Part shown: in pieces, positions 386 to 34,131 of the stretch | Layout: the number at the start of each line of letters is the position of its first letter | Position numbering within the stretch: position 1 is the stretch's first letter | IMG/VR virus record: IMGVR_UViG_3300032323_001139 | Coordinates: 1-34,131 of that record | Source of the DNA: a virus | Length of the DNA stretch: 34,131 bases | Direction: 5' to 3' (one strand) | The notes under the pieces: model-generated | Seen by the model: the letters and a program-made list of their open reading frames with translations, nothing else | Database searches by the model: none | Told to the model about the DNA's origin: nothing | Program-made: the position numbers and the translations under genes

Positions 386-1012
386 TTATTCCCCAATGAT
401 TTGTTTGAGTGCTGCGACCTTGGCTTCGACTTCAGCCAGGAACTTGATGACTTCCGCTTCCGTTGTTTCCAACCAGGCGTTGTCGCGTTCCACGCGTTTG
501 ATGAACAACTGCGCTTTGGCGGGCATACGCGGGTCAAAGACCACGTAGTCGCACCAGGAACGATCCGCGCATCGCATCTGCCACTGCATTTGCGCGAAAT
601 ACTTGGATTCGACAGGGTTGTCGGACAGCCAGCATTCCAGTGCTGTCTTGCTGTCAGGGCATTTGATTTCCACCATGCCATCGTCGCCCACCAGGCCGTC
701 AGGCGAGGCGCCAGCCATCGCAATAGTCGGGTGAGGGATGAACCCCACTTCGTCCACCATGACGCCTTTGGTGGCTTCATATGCGGCCCTGGCGAACGGT
801 TCCTGATCGACGCCCCACTGCATGGACGCGTTCATGTAGGAATCGGCCTTGGCGCCGGTGACGCGTTCCAGAACCAGTTGGGTCATGTAGTTGCCGCGGT
901 CGGCCCCGTAACCCGTTTTGGTTTTGGCCAGGACTTTGTACAGGCTGGATGCCGTGACTTTGCCCAGGCGGGCGGCATACCAATCGTCGGTGCGTTGTTC
1001 GATGTTATCCAT
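386..1012 (-). CDS. exo: YqaJ/lambda-type 5'-3' exonuclease
   Basis: This 208-residue protein belongs to the YqaJ viral recombinase family, PD-(D/E)XK nucleases that chew the 5' strand of double-stranded ends. E71 (in DQEPFAR), D105 (in ASPDGLV), E115 and K117 (in EIKCP) have the same mutual spacing as E85, D119, E129 and K131 of lambda exonuclease, so the active site looks complete. The length is close to the 226 residues of lambda Exo. The start overlaps the end of the ERF gene by 8 bases (ATGGATAA) and has an AAAAGGATC ribosome binding site. Exonuclease followed by loading of the annealing protein is the expected function. Confidence 0.95.
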   Translation of the reverse strand: MDNIEQRTDDWYAARLGKVTASSLYKVLAKTKTGYGADRGNYMTQLVLERVTGAKADSYMNASMQWGVDQEPFARAAYEATKGVMVDEVGFIPHPTIAMAGASPDGLVGDDGMVEIKCPDSKTALECWLSDNPVESKYFAQMQWQMRCADRSWCDYVVFDPRMPAKAQLFIKRVERDNAWLETTEAEVIKFLAEVEAKVAALKQIIGE

Positions 1013-1607
1013 TTGCTTGATCCTTTTTGGCGCGTTCGATGCGGGCTTTCTTTGCGTTGATGACTTTGGCTTGGAGTTGCTGGTTGCCCTGACAGGCTTC
1101 GTATGCGGCTTTGTAGGCTGCGGCCAATTCGTCGCTATTTGCGCTGGCGTCGATTGCTGCTAGGTGGTCGGTAATGTCAGGCAGTGGTGCGGCTGGCGCA
1201 GTTGTGCGACCGCTGGCGGCGTTGCCGTCATCGTCTTCCGGTGCAATGCCACACGCAGCCATGAGCGAATAGCGGCGGGCATACGTCAGGGCGCTGCCGT
1301 AGCCCTGCGGGTCATTCTTGGCCGCGGGGACGTGCAATTGGCCGTTGTTGATCGTTTCGCCTGATTCGTGGATGAACACTGTTTCGACGATCACGCCGTT
1401 GTCGCACGGGCTGACGCGTTGGGTCAGTGCGATGCCGTTGTTGTTCAGCGCGTCGATGACGGCTTCGACACACGCGGCCAGGTCAGCATATCGACCACCG
1501 CGGCCATTCTTGACAAACGCGGGGTTGATCGCCGACTTCAGCGCAGGGCCAAATTCTTTTTGGGCTTTGACAAACGCCGAAGCGATTTTGTTGAATGTGG
1601 GTTCCAT
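1005..1607 (-). CDS. erf: ERF-family single-strand annealing protein
   Basis: This 200-residue protein has the ERF family signature at residues 101-130: GYGSALTYARRYSLM, then CGIAPEDDDGNA. P22 Erf and relatives form rings that anneal complementary single strands and help circularise incoming DNA. Residues 1-130 form the core; 131-200 are an Ala/Pro linker and a helical, lysine-rich tail (NAKKARIERAKKDQ). The gene is just upstream of the exonuclease and overlaps it, the usual pairing of annealase and nuclease. The start at 1607 has AAAGGA about 8 bases upstream. It is the P22-type counterpart of lambda Red beta. Confidence 0.95.
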   Translation of the reverse strand: MEPTFNKIASAFVKAQKEFGPALKSAINPAFVKNGRGGRYADLAACVEAVIDALNNNGIALTQRVSPCDNGVIVETVFIHESGETINNGQLHVPAAKNDPQGYGSALTYARRYSLMAACGIAPEDDDGNAASGRTTAPAAPLPDITDHLAAIDASANSDELAAAYKAAYEACQGNQQLQAKVINAKKARIERAKKDQANG

Positions 1608-1953: not shown

Positions 1954-2064
1954 TCAGAATGGCGCGTCGGGTAGTTGGTCGCGCTGTTGTTTGGCATAGT
2001 CGCGCTGTTGCTGGCGCGTCCAGGGGATAGGCCCGCCAGGCGGCGGGAATGGCCAGTTAGACAT
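1954..2064 (-). CDS. Tiny Pro/Gln-rich protein
   Basis: This 36-residue frame (begins MSNWPFPPPGGPIPW, ends RDQLPDAPF) has its ATG at 2064-2062. It overlaps the last 8 bases of the upstream 67-residue gene and ends 10 bases before the next ATG, so it fits tightly into the operon. The N-terminus is proline- and glycine-rich. The middle has a repeated Q-Q-R-D (QQQRDYAKQQRDQ). AAGG lies about 9 bases upstream of the start. Small phage proteins of the form WPFP..PWT..Q..DY are familiar, but I cannot name a function. Confidence 0.55.
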   Translation of the reverse strand: MSNWPFPPPGGPIPWTRQQQRDYAKQQRDQLPDAPF

Positions 2065-2260
2065 TGGCAAGCGCCTTGGCTTTGTTGATTGCCTGGGCCA
2101 GCATGGCGGCAGGGTAGATGTAGACACCGACGATTTCTTCAGCGTCGGTGTCCAGCAGCGTGACGGCGTAACCGCGGCTGATTTTGGTCACGGTCGCGGC
2201 GATGCCGTATTCCGCGTTGGGGAACGTTGCGATTTGGTCGGGGGTTGCAATCATCATCAT
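2057..2260 (-). CDS. Small protein of unknown function
   Basis: The protein has about 67 residues. Three ATG codons in a row (2260, 2257, 2254) follow AGAAAGGA. The second or third has the better spacing, so the true length may be 65 or 66. The sequence alternates short beta-like stretches (AATVTKISRGYAVTLLDT, VGVYIYPAA) and ends in a helix (AMLAQAINKAKALANV). It is the first gene after the second leftward promoter at 2300-2329, so it may be strongly expressed early. No family recognised. Confidence 0.7.
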   Translation of the reverse strand: MMMIATPDQIATFPNAEYGIAATVTKISRGYAVTLLDTDAEEIVGVYIYPAAMLAQAINKAKALANV

Positions 2261-2297
2261 TTCCTTTCTGAATAGACCGCTTTGCTGCGGCATGGGT

Positions 2298-2474
2298 TTA
2301 TTGTAAGCGCGCTTTACCAAACAAGTCAACAGGGCCAGCAAAGATTTTTTGAAAATTTGTGCGAACGGCCACCGCGTCCCGCAATTCTTGTTCGCTGGCG
2401 CGTTCGATGTACACGCCGCTGATGTAGGTTGCGAAGAACACCTGGCCGCCCCGATGAACTTTGATGATTTTCAT
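2298..2474 (-). CDS. Small basic protein of unknown function
   Basis: This 58-residue protein starts at 2474 (MKIIKVHRGGQVFFA) with AAAGG in GAAAGGCACGAA upstream. It has an N-terminal beta-hairpin-like stretch with a YISGVYIERA segment, then a helix with mixed charge. Its stop codon lies against the -10 box of PL2, so the leftward unit restarts immediately after it. The upstream gene's stop codon sits 10 bases before its start and lends bases to the ribosome binding site. No family recognised. Confidence 0.65.
   Translation of the reverse strand: MKIIKVHRGGQVFFATYISGVYIERASEQELRDAVAVRTNFQKIFAGPVDLFGKARLQ
2300..2329 (-). promoter_or_regulatory. Leftward early promoter PL2
   Basis: On the minus strand TTGACT (2329-2324) is followed after 18 bases by TACAAT (2305-2300). 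The layout matches PL1 at 3183, including the operator-like element in the spacer. Transcription would start near 2293, before the tandem ATG codons at 2260. Confidence 0.72.
2303..2317. promoter_or_regulatory. Operator-like palindrome in PL2
   Basis: GTAAGCGCGCTTTAC is a near-perfect inverted repeat that overlaps the -10 box. It matches the PL1 element (3186-3200) at 12 of 15 positions, differing only in the three central bases. It is a likely Cro site. Confidence 0.65.
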
Positions 2475-2484
2475 TTCGTGCCTT

Positions 2485-2583
2485 TCAAAACAGGGCCATG
2501 GCAAGCCACAGCAAAACGTAGATGACAGGCGCTGCGACCAGCGCCATGCCCACAATTTCCAGATCGGTCGGTTCGCGGTTCAT
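2485..2583 (-). CDS. Very small membrane protein
   Basis: This 32-residue frame begins MNREPTDLEIVG and has one hydrophobic segment over about residues 11-32 (VGMALVAAPVIYVLLWLAMAL). GAAAGGA stands 6 bases before the ATG at 2583. It sits between the LPD29 gene (ends 2595) and the 58-residue gene with gaps of about 10 bases on each side, the same spacing as its neighbours. The acidic N-terminus and the single span resemble other small early phage membrane peptides. Function unknown. Confidence 0.62.
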   Translation of the reverse strand: MNREPTDLEIVGMALVAAPVIYVLLWLAMALF

Positions 2584-2594
2584 GGCGTTTCCTT

Positions 2595-3134
2595 TCAAGC
2601 GGCCAGACGGCCAACGCTGTTGTATCCGTAGCCATCGTCGCCAAGGAAGGCAACGCGGTTCAGGGTCTTGCTTTCGGCTGCATCGTCCATGCTGAATTCG
2701 CTGGCCAGTTGCATGATGCGGCGTTCCTGTTCGTAGTCAGCGCCGACGATCCGGGCGCCGAACCCGTTGTCAACAACATCAAACTTGGGGTAGCCGTAGC
2801 GCACAGCAGCCAGGGCAACGAACCCCTGCATGAATGCGACAGTGAATTTGCGATTGACAAAGATGAAGTCAGCGCCGAACCGGACTTGTTCGCCGTCGAG
2901 CGTGTTGTAGTTGCAGCCCTTGAAGTCGGTCATGCCGTCGAAGTAAGCGCCCTGGAAAGCACCTACAACACCCTTGACCTGATCGGCAGCAGGGCCGTCG
3001 GTGTAGGCCACGTCAATGCTGGCGCCGCCACTGTACACGCTACTGCGGACGCTGAACTTGACGCCAGGGAACGCTTCCTTGAGTGCGGCACGAACCAGTT
3101 TTGCAGTTTCGGCGCAGGTGAGATATTTAGCCAT
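2595..3134 (-). CDS. LPD29-domain protein, first leftward gene
   Basis: This 179-residue protein matches the large polyvalent protein-associated domain 29 (LPD29). The hallmark is a start like MAKYLTCAETAKLVR followed by FPGVKFSVRSSVYSGGASIDV, then a conserved FGADFIFVNRK region. LPD domains are usually parts of giant multidomain phage and conjugative-element proteins; this is a stand-alone copy. It is transcribed from PL1 as the first early-left gene, which suggests a takeover or anti-host role, but the biochemical function of LPD29 is not established. The ATG at 3134 was chosen because the family begins at this motif. Confidence 0.85.
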   Translation of the reverse strand: MAKYLTCAETAKLVRAALKEAFPGVKFSVRSSVYSGGASIDVAYTDGPAADQVKGVVGAFQGAYFDGMTDFKGCNYNTLDGEQVRFGADFIFVNRKFTVAFMQGFVALAAVRYGYPKFDVVDNGFGARIVGADYEQERRIMQLASEFSMDDAAESKTLNRVAFLGDDGYGYNSVGRLAA

Positions 3135-3182
3135 CTTGATTCTCCAAAAAGACCCTTTGCGGAATTGCTAGGGCATGGATGA

Positions 3183-3211
3183 ACTGTAAGCCGCCTTTAC
3201 ACCCAAGTCAA
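3183..3211 (-). promoter_or_regulatory. Leftward early promoter PL1
   Basis: On the minus strand TTGACT (3211-3206) is followed after 17 bases by TACAGT (3188-3183). Transcription would begin near 3176, about 40 bases before the LPD29 start. The spacer and -10 contain the shared operator-like element. Confidence 0.75.
3186..3200. promoter_or_regulatory. Operator-like palindrome in PL1
   Basis: GTAAGCCGCCTTTAC is an imperfect inverted repeat lying in the PL1 spacer and -10. It matches the PL2 element at 12 of 15 bases. It is a likely binding site of the Cro-like protein encoded 76 bases away. Confidence 0.65.
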
Positions 3212-3240
3212 GCCCCCTTACGAAATATTTTTTTGGGTTG

Positions 3241-3269
3241 TTGCTTTTTTGCGAAAGTTGGCTTACCAT
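3241..3269 (+). promoter_or_regulatory. Rightward early promoter PR
   Basis: TTGCTT (3241-3246), a 17-base spacer and TACCAT (3264-3269) precede the cro ATG by only 6 bases, so the mRNA would begin at or near the start codon. The -10 box is embedded in GCTTAC as in PL1 and PL2. No ribosome binding site is seen before cro, which fits a leaderless transcript. Confidence 0.6.
3252..3266. promoter_or_regulatory. Operator-like element in PR
   Basis: CGAAAGTTGGCTTAC matches the minus-strand PL1 element (GTAAAGGCGGCTTAC) at 11 of 15 positions, in the same orientation relative to the -10 box. A second, overlapping imperfect palindrome, GTTGGC-N7-GCGAAC (3257-3275), reaches to the cro start codon. 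Confidence 0.5.
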
Positions 3270-3275
3270 GCGAAC

Positions 3276-3434
3276 ATGGACACACAGCAAGCAATCGAAA
3301 AAGCGGGCAGCGCCGCGGCCCTGGCCAAGTTGCTAGGCATCACCAGGCAAGCGATCAGCCAATGGGGCGACACGGTTCCCCAGGCCCGCGTTTGGCAGTT
3401 GCGGGCCTTGCGCCCCAAGTGGTTCAAGGGCTAG
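3276..3434 (+). CDS. cro: Cro-like repressor (P22 Cro family)
   Basis: This 52-residue protein has a helix-turn-helix at residues 14-31 (AALAKLLGITRQAISQWG) and the short C-terminal strand region (VPQARVWQLRAL) typical of P22-type Cro. P22 Cro has about 61 residues, so this one is slightly shorter. It is the first rightward gene and lies opposite the leftward unit. It probably binds the three operator-like sites in PL1, PL2 and PR and lowers early transcription. No CI gene is present beside it. The ATG at 3276 starts right after the PR -10 box and has no ribosome binding site; an upstream TTG in frame overlaps the promoter and is unlikely. Confidence 0.88.
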   Translation: MDTQQAIEKAGSAAALAKLLGITRQAISQWGDTVPQARVWQLRALRPKWFKG

Positions 3435-3465
3435 AATTGTTTGGAATCCGGCTAGGTGCGAAGTC

Positions 3466-3573
3466 ATGAGCGCACCGAAAAGCGAGCCCACCCGCCTGCC
3501 GAGATTTCCTTTTGTGTGGGACAGCGTGAGGGAAAAATGCACTACTACCAGCATCACATTGGTGACTTCATAA
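3466..3573 (+). CDS. Possible tiny protein between cro and the replication gene
   Basis: This is a 35-residue frame (begins MSAPKSEPTRLPRFPFVW) with AGGTG about 9 bases upstream of the ATG. It overlaps the first 37 bases of the DUF1376 gene in another frame and fills the 100-base gap after cro. The N-terminal part has a Pro-Arg-rich start and then FPFVWDSVREK, which looks protein-like. The tail after residue 24 (Thr- and Ser-rich) may be only read-through into the overlapping gene. Translation is uncertain. Confidence 0.35.
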   Translation: MSAPKSEPTRLPRFPFVWDSVREKCTTTSITLVTS

Positions 3574-5510: not shown

Positions 5511-5784
5511 TGCAAACCAGGAACAGATTGTCGAGGCACTGCGGGCCGCTGGTGCTACGGTTCAGACTTTGGCGGCAGTTGGCAAAGGCGTCCCTGACTT
5601 GTTGGTGGGCTTTCAAAATCAAACCCTGTTGCTTGAGGTTAAAGATGGCCGCAAGCCGCCGTCGGAAAGGCGACTGACCGAAGACCAGTTGAAATGGCAC
5701 GGCGCCTGGCGTGGTGGGCCGCTGGCTGTGGTCACCGACGTGGAATCAGCGTTGCGAATGTTGAGGATGCTGGATGATTTTTGA
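5488..5784 (+). CDS. VRR-NUC-like nuclease
   Basis: This 98-residue protein has the PD-(D/E)XK pattern of VRR-NUC domains: E12 in the first helix, D37 in GVPDLLVGF, E50 and K52 in LLLEVKDG, and a C-terminal LTEDQLKWH with Q67. Stand-alone phage VRR-NUC proteins act on branched or flap DNA and may replace a RusA-type resolvase. It lies between replication genes and ninB, where lambdoid phages keep their resolvases. The start at 5488 overlaps the upstream genes. All expected catalytic residues are present. Confidence 0.85.
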   Translation: MRRAAKVDANQEQIVEALRAAGATVQTLAAVGKGVPDLLVGFQNQTLLLEVKDGRKPPSERRLTEDQLKWHGAWRGGPLAVVTDVESALRMLRMLDDF

Positions 5785-6175
5785 GTTGTACAACCCGCAG
5801 CAAGCCAAAATCCTGATGGAACGGCTATGGCCTGACATAAAGGCCAACCTGACCGCGGGCAACAAAATGCGGCTAGAAGTCAAAAAGGCGACGCGCAGCC
5901 AGGATCAGAACGCCAAGTTTCACGCGATGATTGGGCAGATCGGCGCCGTGATGCGGATGGCCGGATCAACCTGGTCGGATGATGACTGGAAACGCCTGTT
6001 GATTGACCAGTGGGCGCACGAAACCAACCGCAAAATGGGTCGGGTCGCGCCAAGCCTGGACGGCGAACGGGTTGTCCAGTTGGGCTGGCAAAGCCACAAA
6101 TTCACAATCGAAGACGCAAGCGAATTTATCGAATGGTTATACGCATGGGCAGCAGAAAAGGGCATGGAGATATGA
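5774..6175 (+). CDS. ninB: NinB recombination protein (lambda Orf family)
   Basis: This 133-residue protein matches NinB (lambda Orf, 146 residues): a start with short beta strands, RLEVKKATRSQDQNAKFHAMIGQI, and WSDDDWKRLLIDQWAHE. Orf binds single-stranded DNA and SSB and can stand in for host RecFOR in phage recombination. It therefore fits functionally with the ERF and exonuclease genes of the leftward unit. The start overlaps the VRR-NUC gene by 11 bases; the stop overlaps the next ATG. Confidence 0.9.
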   Translation: MIFELYNPQQAKILMERLWPDIKANLTAGNKMRLEVKKATRSQDQNAKFHAMIGQIGAVMRMAGSTWSDDDWKRLLIDQWAHETNRKMGRVAPSLDGERVVQLGWQSHKFTIEDASEFIEWLYAWAAEKGMEI

Positions 6176-6698: not shown

Positions 6699-6730
6699 CG
6701 GGGGGCTACCACCCCCCGACCTTTTCCTTT
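6699..6730 (+). terminator. Rho-independent terminator after the early-right block
   Basis: A 7-bp stem (C plus six G, loop CTACCA, six C plus G) occupies 6699-6718 and is followed by a T-rich stretch (CTTTTCCTTT) at 6721-6730. It begins directly behind the HNH stop codon and separates it from the next block. Confidence 0.8.
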
Positions 6731-6735
6731 ATCAT
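6730..6735 (+). promoter_or_regulatory. Possible -10 box of a late or middle promoter
   Basis: TATCAT ends 6 bases before the ATG at 6742, the same geometry as the PR -10 box and cro. No clear -35 box is present at 16-18 bases upstream, because the terminator hairpin occupies that place. The gene at 6742 has no ribosome binding site, which would fit a leaderless mRNA. Confidence 0.35.
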
Positions 6736-6741
6736 CGCGCC

Positions 6742-7101
6742 ATGAACGATGAAATGTCCGAATTCCTGACCGCGTTGCTGCATAGCAGTACCGTGACGCA
6801 TTTTTTGCATTGGTCAACTGATTCCTATGCAAAACACCAGGCGTTGGGCGAATTCTACGAACAGATCATCGAACTGACTGACAAACTTGCCGAAGCCTAC
6901 ATGGGCAAGTATGAGCAGATCAAAAAGTTTCCTGAAGAATTCCACGGCGCGAAGGAACCAGTCAAGTACCTGGAATCGCTGAAAGAGTTTGTCCAGGAAA
7001 GCCGCGAGGATTTGCCGCAAGATTCAGAACTGCAAAACATCGTCGATGAAATTGCAGACCTGATTAACAGCACCCTTTACAAACTTCGATTCCTAACCTG
7101 A
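6742..7101 (+). CDS. DUF5856-family helical protein
   Basis: This 119-residue, mostly helical protein has the signature H..HW.TDSYAKHQALGEFYEQI, then DKLAEAYMGKY. It matches the DUF5856 family of phage proteins, whose His/Glu pattern resembles ferritin or Dps-like four-helix bundles. Whether it binds metal is not known. It is the first gene after the terminator at 6699 and so heads the accessory-late block. The ATG at 6742 has no visible ribosome binding site. Confidence 0.8.
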   Translation: MNDEMSEFLTALLHSSTVTHFLHWSTDSYAKHQALGEFYEQIIELTDKLAEAYMGKYEQIKKFPEEFHGAKEPVKYLESLKEFVQESREDLPQDSELQNIVDEIADLINSTLYKLRFLT

Positions 7102-7112
7102 AAGGAAAGACC

Positions 7113-7331
7113 ATGAAAGACAACGCCGAAATGCAGCCCAAGGGCTATGGTACTAGCGCCAAGGCGCCCGCTGGTGCAACCGCTAGCGACAGCACTGGCA
7201 ACCGCCACGAACGCGTGGTCAATGGCGTTGGCATGGGCAAGGCCGATGCTACTGGCGCCAATCACAATTTTGATGGTGGCCGTTCCAAGGGTGTGTGCTA
7301 CACCCACGAACGCAAGTCTTACCAAAAGTAA
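7113..7331 (+). CDS. Conserved phage protein, Gly/Asn-rich
   Basis: This 72-residue protein has GAAAGGAAAGACC before the ATG. It is polar and probably disordered up to residue 35, then has a conserved-looking end (MGKADATGANHNFDGGRSKGVCYTH) containing one Cys and several His. Similar short proteins ending in GGR..GVCYTH.RKS are familiar from podoviruses. Its TAA stop overlaps the start of the kinase gene by one base (TAATG), so the two are probably cotranslated. Function unknown. Confidence 0.75.
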   Translation: MKDNAEMQPKGYGTSAKAPAGATASDSTGNRHERVVNGVGMGKADATGANHNFDGGRSKGVCYTHERKSYQK

Positions 7332-8245
7332 TGGCCACCCCGCTGTCGCAAATGGCAGCGGCGGGTCAACAACAGGCAGCGCCGCAAGGCACACAAGCCA
7401 GCCTGGCTTCGCTTGTCCCGCAGCCAACGCTGCCGCAGACTGGTCAATCCAACCCGATTGAACAGGCGTATTTCGACCGCCTGGCCAATGACTACACAGG
7501 TCTGGCCAGCGAATACGCACAACTACCATCCACCGACGGTGGGCGCGTCTTGAACACGGATGACGCCCGCGAAATGTCGCCCGAATACCGTGCAGACCGC
7601 ACCAGGTCGGCAGACGTTCATGAGCCGTCATCGGCGTTTGTCAAACAGATGTATGCCGAGAAACTTTCCAACCCCACGCCGCCAGGCAAGGACAACACCG
7701 TGTTGTTCACCGCGGGCGGCACTGGCGCAGGAAAGACCACGGGCCTTCAGGAAGCCCAAAAAGTCAGCCAGGGCATACGTGATGCTGAAATCGTGTACGA
7801 CACGAACATGAACACGTTTGAGAGCGCCGACAAGAAAATCCAGCAAGCCCTTAAAGCCGGTCGCAAGGTCGGCATCGTGTACACGTATCGCGATCCTGTC
7901 GAAGCCATGGAGAACGGCGCCCTGAAGCGGGCCAGCCGCATGGAAGCCGAAATGGGCACGGGCCGCACCGTACCGATTGACGAACACTTCAAGACCCACA
8001 TGGGTTCACGCGAAGTGATGGATCGGCTGCAAGACAAATACGGCGACGATCACCGATTCCACATGATGGTCATCGACAACAGCCGCGGCCCTGGCAATGC
8101 AACCGTTGTAAGCGGTCTTGACAAGCTGCCGCGTCTGGATCATAATGAAGTCAGAAAGGGATTGAGTGATGTACTCGAAAAAGCCTACCGAACCGGCAAG
8201 ATCAGCCAGGCCATCTACGAAGGGACGCGAGGCAACGCCCGCTGA
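7331..8245 (+). CDS. Zeta-toxin-like P-loop kinase
   Basis: This 304-residue protein has a Gln/Ala-rich N-terminus (residues 1-45) and a kinase core. The Walker A motif is GGTGAGKTT at 129-137, preceded by the strand NTVLFTA. Further on are DAEIVYDTNMNTF and VGIVYTYRDPVEAMENGALKR, as in the zeta-toxin and related AAA kinases. Zeta toxins phosphorylate UDP-N-acetylglucosamine and block wall synthesis. No epsilon-type antitoxin is seen nearby, so this copy may be a modified kinase used by the phage or carried in the virion. The ATG at 7331 is coupled to the preceding stop. The GTG upstream was not chosen. Confidence 0.75.
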   Translation: MATPLSQMAAAGQQQAAPQGTQASLASLVPQPTLPQTGQSNPIEQAYFDRLANDYTGLASEYAQLPSTDGGRVLNTDDAREMSPEYRADRTRSADVHEPSSAFVKQMYAEKLSNPTPPGKDNTVLFTAGGTGAGKTTGLQEAQKVSQGIRDAEIVYDTNMNTFESADKKIQQALKAGRKVGIVYTYRDPVEAMENGALKRASRMEAEMGTGRTVPIDEHFKTHMGSREVMDRLQDKYGDDHRFHMMVIDNSRGPGNATVVSGLDKLPRLDHNEVRKGLSDVLEKAYRTGKISQAIYEGTRGNAR

Positions 8246-8348: not shown

Positions 8349-8587
8349 GCGAAGTCCGCTGCAAAACCTGTCGTTTTTTTGTGAATGGCCAGGTGATGGG
8401 CGCTTGCCGCCGTTACCCGGAAATGCACAACAAACACGAAATGGACTGGTGTGGTGAACATCAGGTGGCCATGGTGGAGTTGCCGGTCTACGACATCATG
8501 ACGGACGAAACCAAAGTCGCCCAAGTCCCTGTCGAGCGTAAAAAACCTGGAAGGAAGCCCAAGAATGCAGATTCGTCCGTTGCATGA
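8345..8587 (+). CDS. Small zinc-motif protein
   Basis: This 80-residue protein has C6, C9, C21 and C36 with H39 close by (RCKTCRFF, GACRRYP, DWCGEHQ), which probably form one zinc knuckle. The pattern C..C.FF......G.C...P resembles widespread small phage and prophage proteins of unknown function. A basic tail (ERKKPGRKPKN) may bind nucleic acid. It overlaps both neighbours (ATGA at the start, 23 bases at the end). Confidence 0.75.
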   Translation: MSEVRCKTCRFFVNGQVMGACRRYPEMHNKHEMDWCGEHQVAMVELPVYDIMTDETKVAQVPVERKKPGRKPKNADSSVA

Positions 8588-8825
8588 CCGCGTTGTTGTC
8601 AAGCCGTTTGTCAGAAAGCTGTCAGACATAATCATTGTCAACAACACCGAAAAATTCAACGAAGGCGAAATCGTCGCTGTTGGGCCTGACGCCACCGAAG
8701 TGAGGGTGGGCGACAAAATCAAATACGGCAACGGGACATATCTGGACTGGCCCGTTCACACGTTTGATGGCCAGGATTACCAAATCATCCAGGAAGCCGA
8801 TGTGGCTTGCGTGGTCGAGCAATAA
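8565..8825 (+). CDS. groES: GroES-like co-chaperonin
   Basis: This 86-residue protein begins MQIRPLHDRVVVKP, the hallmark of Cpn10/GroES. It continues with the mobile loop region (KLSDIIIVNNTEKFNEG, residues 18-34; the hydrophobic III/V triplet that binds GroEL is present), GEIVAVGP, RVGDKIKYGNG and a final DVACVVEQ strand. Host GroES is about 97 residues, so the phage copy has lost part of the roof loop. Phage GroES analogues (such as T4 gp31) help the host GroEL fold the coat protein. No GroEL gene is present here. GGAAGGAAG precedes the ATG. Confidence 0.92.
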   Translation: MQIRPLHDRVVVKPFVRKLSDIIIVNNTEKFNEGEIVAVGPDATEVRVGDKIKYGNGTYLDWPVHTFDGQDYQIIQEADVACVVEQ

Positions 8826-33962: not shown

Positions 33963-34112
33963 TTATGTGAACCACAGGTAAAACCCGTGCAGTATCCCAA
34001 TCGGGAAAAAGACAGCGCCAGCCAGCAGAAAGCCCCACATCCCACCCGCGAAACAGGTAAAGACATGGGTTAACCAGGCGAAGAAACAAGCCAAGCCAAT
34101 GATGTAACCCAT
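33963..34112 (-). CDS. Small two-span membrane protein (intact copy)
   Basis: This 49-residue protein starts at ATG 34112 and begins MGYIIGLACFFAWLTHVF. It has two hydrophobic segments, about residues 3-21 and 24-46 (GMWGFLLAGAVFFPIGILHG). It has almost no charged residues. The AGGTGA ribosome binding site lies in the repeated end. It is transcribed with the genes of the window start, because its upstream neighbour is the 88-residue gene at 116-382 of the left copy. Possible roles are host-membrane or superinfection functions; none is shown. Confidence 0.75.
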   Translation of the reverse strand: MGYIIGLACFFAWLTHVFTCFAGGMWGFLLAGAVFFPIGILHGFYLWFT

Positions 34113-34131
34113 GGTGTCACCTATCAGGGAA
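34009..34131. repeat. Direct terminal repeat, right copy (123 bp)
   Basis: This segment is identical to bases 1-123. It contains the intact start region of the 49-residue membrane gene and the last bases of the 88-residue gene. It marks the closure point of the 34,008-bp unit. Confidence 0.97.

Follow-up and report, generated by a model that had tools for sequence, protein, structure and literature searches.

Cro is familiar as one of the two partners in a bistable switch. In P22 and lambda, cro is the first gene of PR, triplet operators (OL and OR) overlap PL and PR, recombination genes lie to the left and replication genes to the right, and the CI repressor is encoded divergently from cro. 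Control of many dispersed promoters by one repressor is familiar from phage P1, in which the lysogeny repressor C1 acts through overlapping operators. Lambdoid morons are small genes with their own promoter that lie between core genes; as a rule they have a terminator at their end and are free of phage control. The temperate Cluster A mycobacteriophages use one repressor with many dispersed sites, some in early promoters, and their stoperators block elongation away from promoters (PMC6550527). In prophage CP-933P, the Cro analogue YdaS acts in a short divergent intergenic region; leaderless regulator mRNAs are known for lambda cI and PaaR2, in both cases the CI-type gene (PMC8630535).

The freshwater phage genome described here (the window, meaning the whole 34,131-nt stretch of DNA analyzed) resembles P22 and lambda in its P22-family Cro encoded first behind PR, its AAGnnnnCTT-type operators overlapping leftward and rightward promoters, and its division into left recombination and right replication genes. 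The AAGnnnnCTT core agrees with that of P22 Cro/C2 operators. Unlike P22 and lambda, no CI or integrase was detected, PL1 and PR stand back to back with single operators, further operator-bearing promoters occur inside the left unit, and the cro mRNA is probably leaderless. None of the traits of the lambda/P22 switch (CI divergent from cro, integrase, prophage occurrence) was found here in the searches made. The locus shares with YdaS/PaaR2 a Cro-type regulator, a short divergent region and, as predicted here, a leaderless regulator mRNA; in CP-933P, however, it is the CI analogue paaR2 that is leaderless, whereas here it would be cro, and no CI analogue was found. As with P1 C1, one repressor would serve dispersed promoters, but the protein is Cro. 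In contrast to Cluster A, the searches gave no prophage repressor, and the conserved sites either coincide with promoters or lie between them; the top matrix matches in the window are promoters, not sites lying off promoters and oriented with transcription. Two moron traits, an own promoter and a variable gene behind it, are seen in the left units, but each of these units also comes with a putative Cro operator and a hairpin at the 5′ end.

We interpret the locus as a putative Cro-only early shut-off circuit in a phage probably unable to form lysogens, a reading to which we give a probability of a little under 0.8. Cro, P22-type operators and accessory genes with their own promoters are already known. 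The openly accessible literature that was searched gave no precedent for Cro-only phages or a leaderless cro, and no description of a group-wide Cro-only circuit combining a reused promoter-operator-hairpin unit with a leaderless cro.

Cro and its putative operators in the window

The record carries an exact 123-base direct terminal repeat (positions 1-123 and 34009-34131) and is probably a complete, terminally redundant or circular genome of 34,008 unique bases. The failure to find CI thus applies to what is probably the whole genome. Features of the early region are listed in Table 1.

Table 1. Coordinates of early-region features in the window.
Feature	Position	Strand	Sequence or description	Evidence or remark
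YqaJ exonuclease	386-1012	-	left unit	known function
Erf-like annealing protein	1005-1607	-	left unit	known function
Gene directly behind PL2 cassette	2057-2260	-	67 aa	family behind internal cassettes in 17 cases
PL2 5′ leader hairpin	2276-2291	-	GCCGC-AGCAAA-GCGGT	sequence, covariation
PL2	2300-2329	-	-35 TTGACT, 18 bp, -10 TACAAT	internal left-unit promoter
PL2 15-bp element	2317-2303	-	GTAAAGCGCGCTTAC	
Operator core at PL2	2305-2314		AAGCGCGCTT	core scan, matrix
LPD29-domain protein	2595-3134	-	179 aa, first gene behind PL1	Pfam LPD29 6.9e-25
PL1 5′ leader hairpin	3152-3174	-	GCCC...GGGT, then TCTTTTT	starts at about +2/+3
PL1	3183-3211	-	-35 TTGACT, 17 bp, -10 TACAGT	sequence
PL1 15-bp element	3200-3186	-	GTAAAGGCGGCTTAC	
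Operator core at PL1	3188-3197		AAGGCGGCTT on minus strand	core scan, matrix
Middle operator core	3210-3219		AAGCCCCCTT, between PR and PL1	overlaps PL1 -35
PR	3241-3269	+	-35 TTGCTT, 17 bp, -10 TACCAT	sequence
PR 15-bp element	3252-3266	+	CGAAAGTTGGCTTAC	
Operator core at PR	3255-3264		AAGTTGGCTT	core scan, matrix
cro	3276-3434	+	52 aa, P22-type Cro repressor, first gene of right unit	Pfam, PDB sequence match, model

The identification of a P22-type Cro in the preliminary description is upheld by family, sequence and predicted fold. The protein matches Pfam P22_Cro (PF14549) at 1.4e-13 (50.9 bits against a curated cut-off of 30.2) and P22 Cro (PDB entry 1rzs) by sequence at 1.5e-6. Its AlphaFold model (pLDDT 93) is all-helical, with helices at residues 3-10, 13-20, 24-28 and 36-45, and aligns with 1rzs and with N15 Cro (6on0) at Z 7.8, the rmsd to 1rzs being 1.5 over 51 residues. 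The PR -10 box ends 6 nt before the cro ATG, both in the window and in relatives with a core at -21; given the usual distance from -10 to start, this places +1 at the A of the ATG, and the cro mRNA is thus predicted to be leaderless.

Three 15-bp elements, at PL1, PL2 and PR, had been described, with identities of 12/15 (PL1 vs. PL2) and 11/15 (PL1 vs. PR) and with ends in the first bases of the -10 box. Re-reading of the sequence found all three in place, recomputation returned the same identities, and the terminal TAC forms the first three bases of each -10 box. A stricter core, AAGnnnnCTT, is common to the three elements and fused to the -10 box. The count of three sites does not stand, as a fourth core between PR and PL1 had been missed; the P22-type Cro is therefore accompanied by four AAGnnnnCTT cores at or near PR, PL1 and PL2. 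The operators are imperfect palindromes, and several relatives have CTA for CTT in one half. PL2 overlaps the 3′ end of a 58-codon ORF.

When 93 distinct sites of relatives, window excluded, are made into a weight matrix, its top three matches in the 34-kb genome are PR, PL2 and PL1 (22.1, 22.1, and 17.7 bits); the maximum in 30 random Markov sequences was 17.6 bits. With the -10 columns removed, the same three sites lead by a small margin (15.6-14.5 bits), and random sequences average 0.40 matches at or above the third site, a weak separation from random sequence. Comparative evidence therefore outweighs that from the window alone, and matrix scan and conservation together rule out a chance repeat.

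Other candidate sites were rejected. A match inside the kinase gene (8105-8122, AAGCGGTCTT) has no promoter, and a relative (L067) carries identical bases within a coding sequence; it is treated as a coding chance. The match at the LPD29 start codon (3123-3140, 16.0 bits) covers AAGATGGCTAAATAT around the ATG, with no -35 noted, and is likewise ascribed to chance. No good -35 was seen that would make the middle site a third leftward promoter.

Operator conservation and a portable left cassette

Relatives retrieved by Cro protein sequence alone (the best 80 of 137 viral contigs) and loci retrieved with the LPD29 protein together gave 85 distinct loci, window included; allowing for kinship, these amount to about 17-23 effective sequences per site class. 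The core starts exactly 21 bp upstream of the cro ATG in 73 of the 85 loci, and the 150 bp upstream of cro contain cores at 16.5 per kb, compared with 0.65 per kb overall. The middle core is present in 63/85 loci, and its center is CCCC in 53 of 64 cores, making it far more fixed than the centers at promoter sites. Three loci (L074, L075, and L145) have no core at -21 and carry a shifted AAGnnnnCTA instead.

Where the recognition helix has diverged most, relatives have different repeats in this position: GTCAC-N6-GTGAC, leading into the -10 box, at PR in L084, ACACTA-N6-TAGTGT at PR in L086, and GTATAGnAAnCTnAAC at both PR and PL1 in L080. These repeats were spotted by eye and then scanned for. 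They support, without proving, a joint change of operator and Cro recognition helix, since the diverged cases are few and were found by eye. Clean covariation of half-site and helix was rejected because the CTA half-site occurs with several helix types, and only the three strongly diverged cases are therefore quoted.

Leftward promoters in the group are built as a cassette comprising a -35 box, an operator fused to the -10 box, a 5′ hairpin and a Shine-Dalgarno sequence. Promoter-operator composites were counted 74 times at PR, 81 times in leftward orientation close to cro (PL1 in almost every case) and 70 times within the left unit, a few of these being coding matches or mirror readings; the right unit of relatives had no same-strand composite. 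The internal copies mostly have an 18-base spacer, and PL1 17. A second leftward promoter with its own operator had been called uncommon, a judgment reversed by the 70 internal composites: the arrangement is usual in the group, and PL2 of the window exemplifies a wider pattern in which left genes are preceded by such cassettes.

The cassette precedes more than 20 gene families. Clustering by similarity sorts the genes directly behind it into 27 groups; two or three of these are false positives from coding sequence. LPD29 follows PL1 in 56 cases and an internal cassette in four, six gene groups occur in both positions, and in four relatives (L008, L034, L088, and L097) an extra gene with its cassette is inserted between PL1 and LPD29. 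The cassette is portable, in that left genes come with a putative operator-bearing promoter, and, the operator being part of the cassette, any gene behind it is predicted to fall automatically under Cro. Whether the cassette is also a transferable module, a recombination joint at which early genes are gained, lost and swapped, each newcomer being wired into a Cro-only shut-off run by Cro from a leaderless mRNA, is a tentative proposal that we rate at slightly less than an even chance.

A similar cassette occurs in the right unit of a more distant relative (L006, MW202674.1, 5448-5520, plus strand), whose Cro-like protein is longer; it consists of TTGACA, AAGTTAGCTT/TAATAT and the hairpin ATGGC-AATAAC-GCCAT.

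The hairpin starts eight bases after the -10 box (about +2) in 97 of the 109 distinct leaders where it could be placed, and is followed by a U-run and Shine-Dalgarno sequence (SD-like motif in 112/119). Its closing pair is C-G in 90, G-C in 25 and mismatched in one of 116 distinct leaders, covariation that appears strong even allowing for shared ancestry. The case for the hairpin rests on this covariation, since on shuffling the leaders reach only a modest z-score (mean -0.7). In L135 and L006, a hairpin is formed at about the same place from other sequences. A stem of 4-5 bp starting from about +2 comes too early to terminate, and an ordinary terminator was thus dismissed. A stem at the extreme 5′ end of an mRNA fits protection from decay, and protection of the mRNA 5′ end is probably its function.

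Search for a lysogeny partner and the proposed circuit

The preliminary description had suggested a Cro-only circuit rather than a lysis-lysogeny switch, Cro being the sole repressor seen. Searches of the window and 26 relatives (most 30-35 kb; L086 was the 28th record) returned no Peptidase_S24 repressor over cut-off, no tyrosine integrase (PF00589), no serine recombinase or resolvase (PF00239), no ParB and no second HTH_3 domain over cut-off. In the window, only Cro gives an HTH_3-like signal, and this falls below cut-off; PHROGs scans of the early and small ORFs of the window gave no other repressor. Direct reading of the gene beside cro and divergent from it, in the slot that cI occupies in a temperate phage, shows it to be LPD29. 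A search of about 85,000 bacterial and archaeal genomes gave no relative of Cro. Both points are supported by these searches, together with the position and sequence of the operator kept in dozens of relatives, subject to a caveat on sensitivity that comes from L086.

L086, whose Cro is 61% identical, alone among the relatives searched has an integrase (PF00589). In its LPD29 slot, beside cro, lies a gene for a 139-aa CI-like protein (5511-5930, minus strand; PHROG transcriptional repressor, 1.7e-7) that the Pfam S24 and HTH_3 models miss and PHROGs make visible. Absence by family model alone is therefore weak evidence. The pairing of integrase and CI-like gene beside cro also suggests that the Cro-only layout is a real alternative state, and makes L086 a natural comparator for circuits losing or gaining lysogeny.

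Portal relatives of 45-46% identity lie in large bacterial contigs of Burkholderia and Paraburkholderia (L176, L177, and L180); bacterial portal relatives are at most 63% identical. Prophages of this Burkholderia type were considered as temperate parents and rejected, as no P22-type Cro was found in the four bacterial genomes with a related portal that were searched. The virion module probably has temperate relatives with a different control region, and these portal relatives make Burkholderiales a guess for the host group.

In the proposed circuit, host RNA polymerase would read the strong early promoters PR, PL1 and PL2 at infection, PR driving cro together with the replication genes, and the leftward pair PL1 and PL2 driving the LPD29 gene, small genes and the Erf/YqaJ recombination genes. 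Cro made from PR would accumulate, bind AAGnnnnCTT and block all three promoters, its own included, since each site overlaps the -10 box and spacer; the middle site would contribute further repression between PL1 and PR. From that point late genes would need a promoter of their own, for which 6699-6741 is a candidate start. Cro binding, repression and their timing are predicted here from sequence, and the phage group probably has a lytic life style.

Could the sites instead serve a lysis-lysogeny switch whose repressor, LPD29 or a small left gene, has gone unrecognized, in a temperate, plasmid-like or pseudolysogenic phage? The LPD29 gene does occupy the cI slot, about ten small ORFs have no family match, the L086 protein is an example of a short divergent repressor that standard models can miss, and relatives of the virion module lie in Burkholderia and Paraburkholderia contigs. 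LPD29, however, is a known accessory domain that lacks an HTH, and in relatives its place behind PL1 is also taken by other gene families. Taken with the lack of integrase, serine recombinase and ParB in the window and 26 relatives, of a close Cro relative in the roughly 85,000 bacterial genomes, and of a P22-type Cro in the four with a related portal gene, this makes a hidden switch improbable. We regard as slightly more improbable still that the element is a shared promoter style, reflecting host polymerase preference or a host regulator site, and not a Cro operator. It is true that the -10-proximal half (GCTTAC) overlaps the -10 box and would be conserved anyway, and that the distal half is TAG rather than AAG in some relatives. 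Yet the distal AAG lies 9 bp from the -10 box, where it has no known promoter value, and carries 1.2-1.7 bits at PL1 and internal sites (sets selected for containing the core) and 0.6-1.3 bits in the PR set, which had not been filtered for an operator. The middle core, moreover, has no fused -10 box, AAGnnnnCTT is the P22 Cro/C2 operator core, and relatives with a different recognition helix have their own repeats at this position.

A less remote, though still unlikely, alternative accepts Cro as the regulator and makes it a rheostat that tunes left versus right strength or timing and does not shut off the early units. Cro is small and may dimerize weakly, a leaderless mRNA may be poorly translated and keep Cro levels low, and site spacing varies among relatives, with no fixed cooperative array. 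Against these points, all the promoter sites lie across core promoter elements, a geometry that goes with full repression, and the same site is retained at every cassette copy. Under the preferred reading, Cro-only early shut-off, Cro appears alone in at least 80 viral contigs, and the group makes it testable whether the role of Cro without a lysogeny decision is to end the early phase. The cassette, standing before so many gene families, would offer a way to accept new early genes without losing control.

Further features of the window

A strong terminator (6699-6718, plus strand) lies downstream of the HNH gene, and a -10-like TATCAT stands exactly 6 nt upstream of the ATG of gene 6742-7101, which has no Shine-Dalgarno sequence. 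TATCAT, TATAGT or TATGAT occupies that position in 26/38 distinct loci, and variants of the terminator and -10-like layout occur in most relatives examined. The 6699-6741 region is a possible late promoter giving a second leaderless mRNA. The gene itself matches phrog_858, annotated "starvation-inducible transcriptional regulator," which is not a phage repressor.

An int-alpA RNA (Rfam RF02996; 37.4 bits, cut-off 35.8) lies directly behind cro at 3445-3520 (plus strand), with no integrase gene found in the window to accompany it; the same RNA is found at the same or a nearby place in L002, L010, L015 and L016. Between the early and packaging genes, a zeta-toxin-like kinase domain (PF06414, 9.5e-13) is encoded at 7295-8245 (plus strand), and a GroES-like gene is located at 8565-8825.
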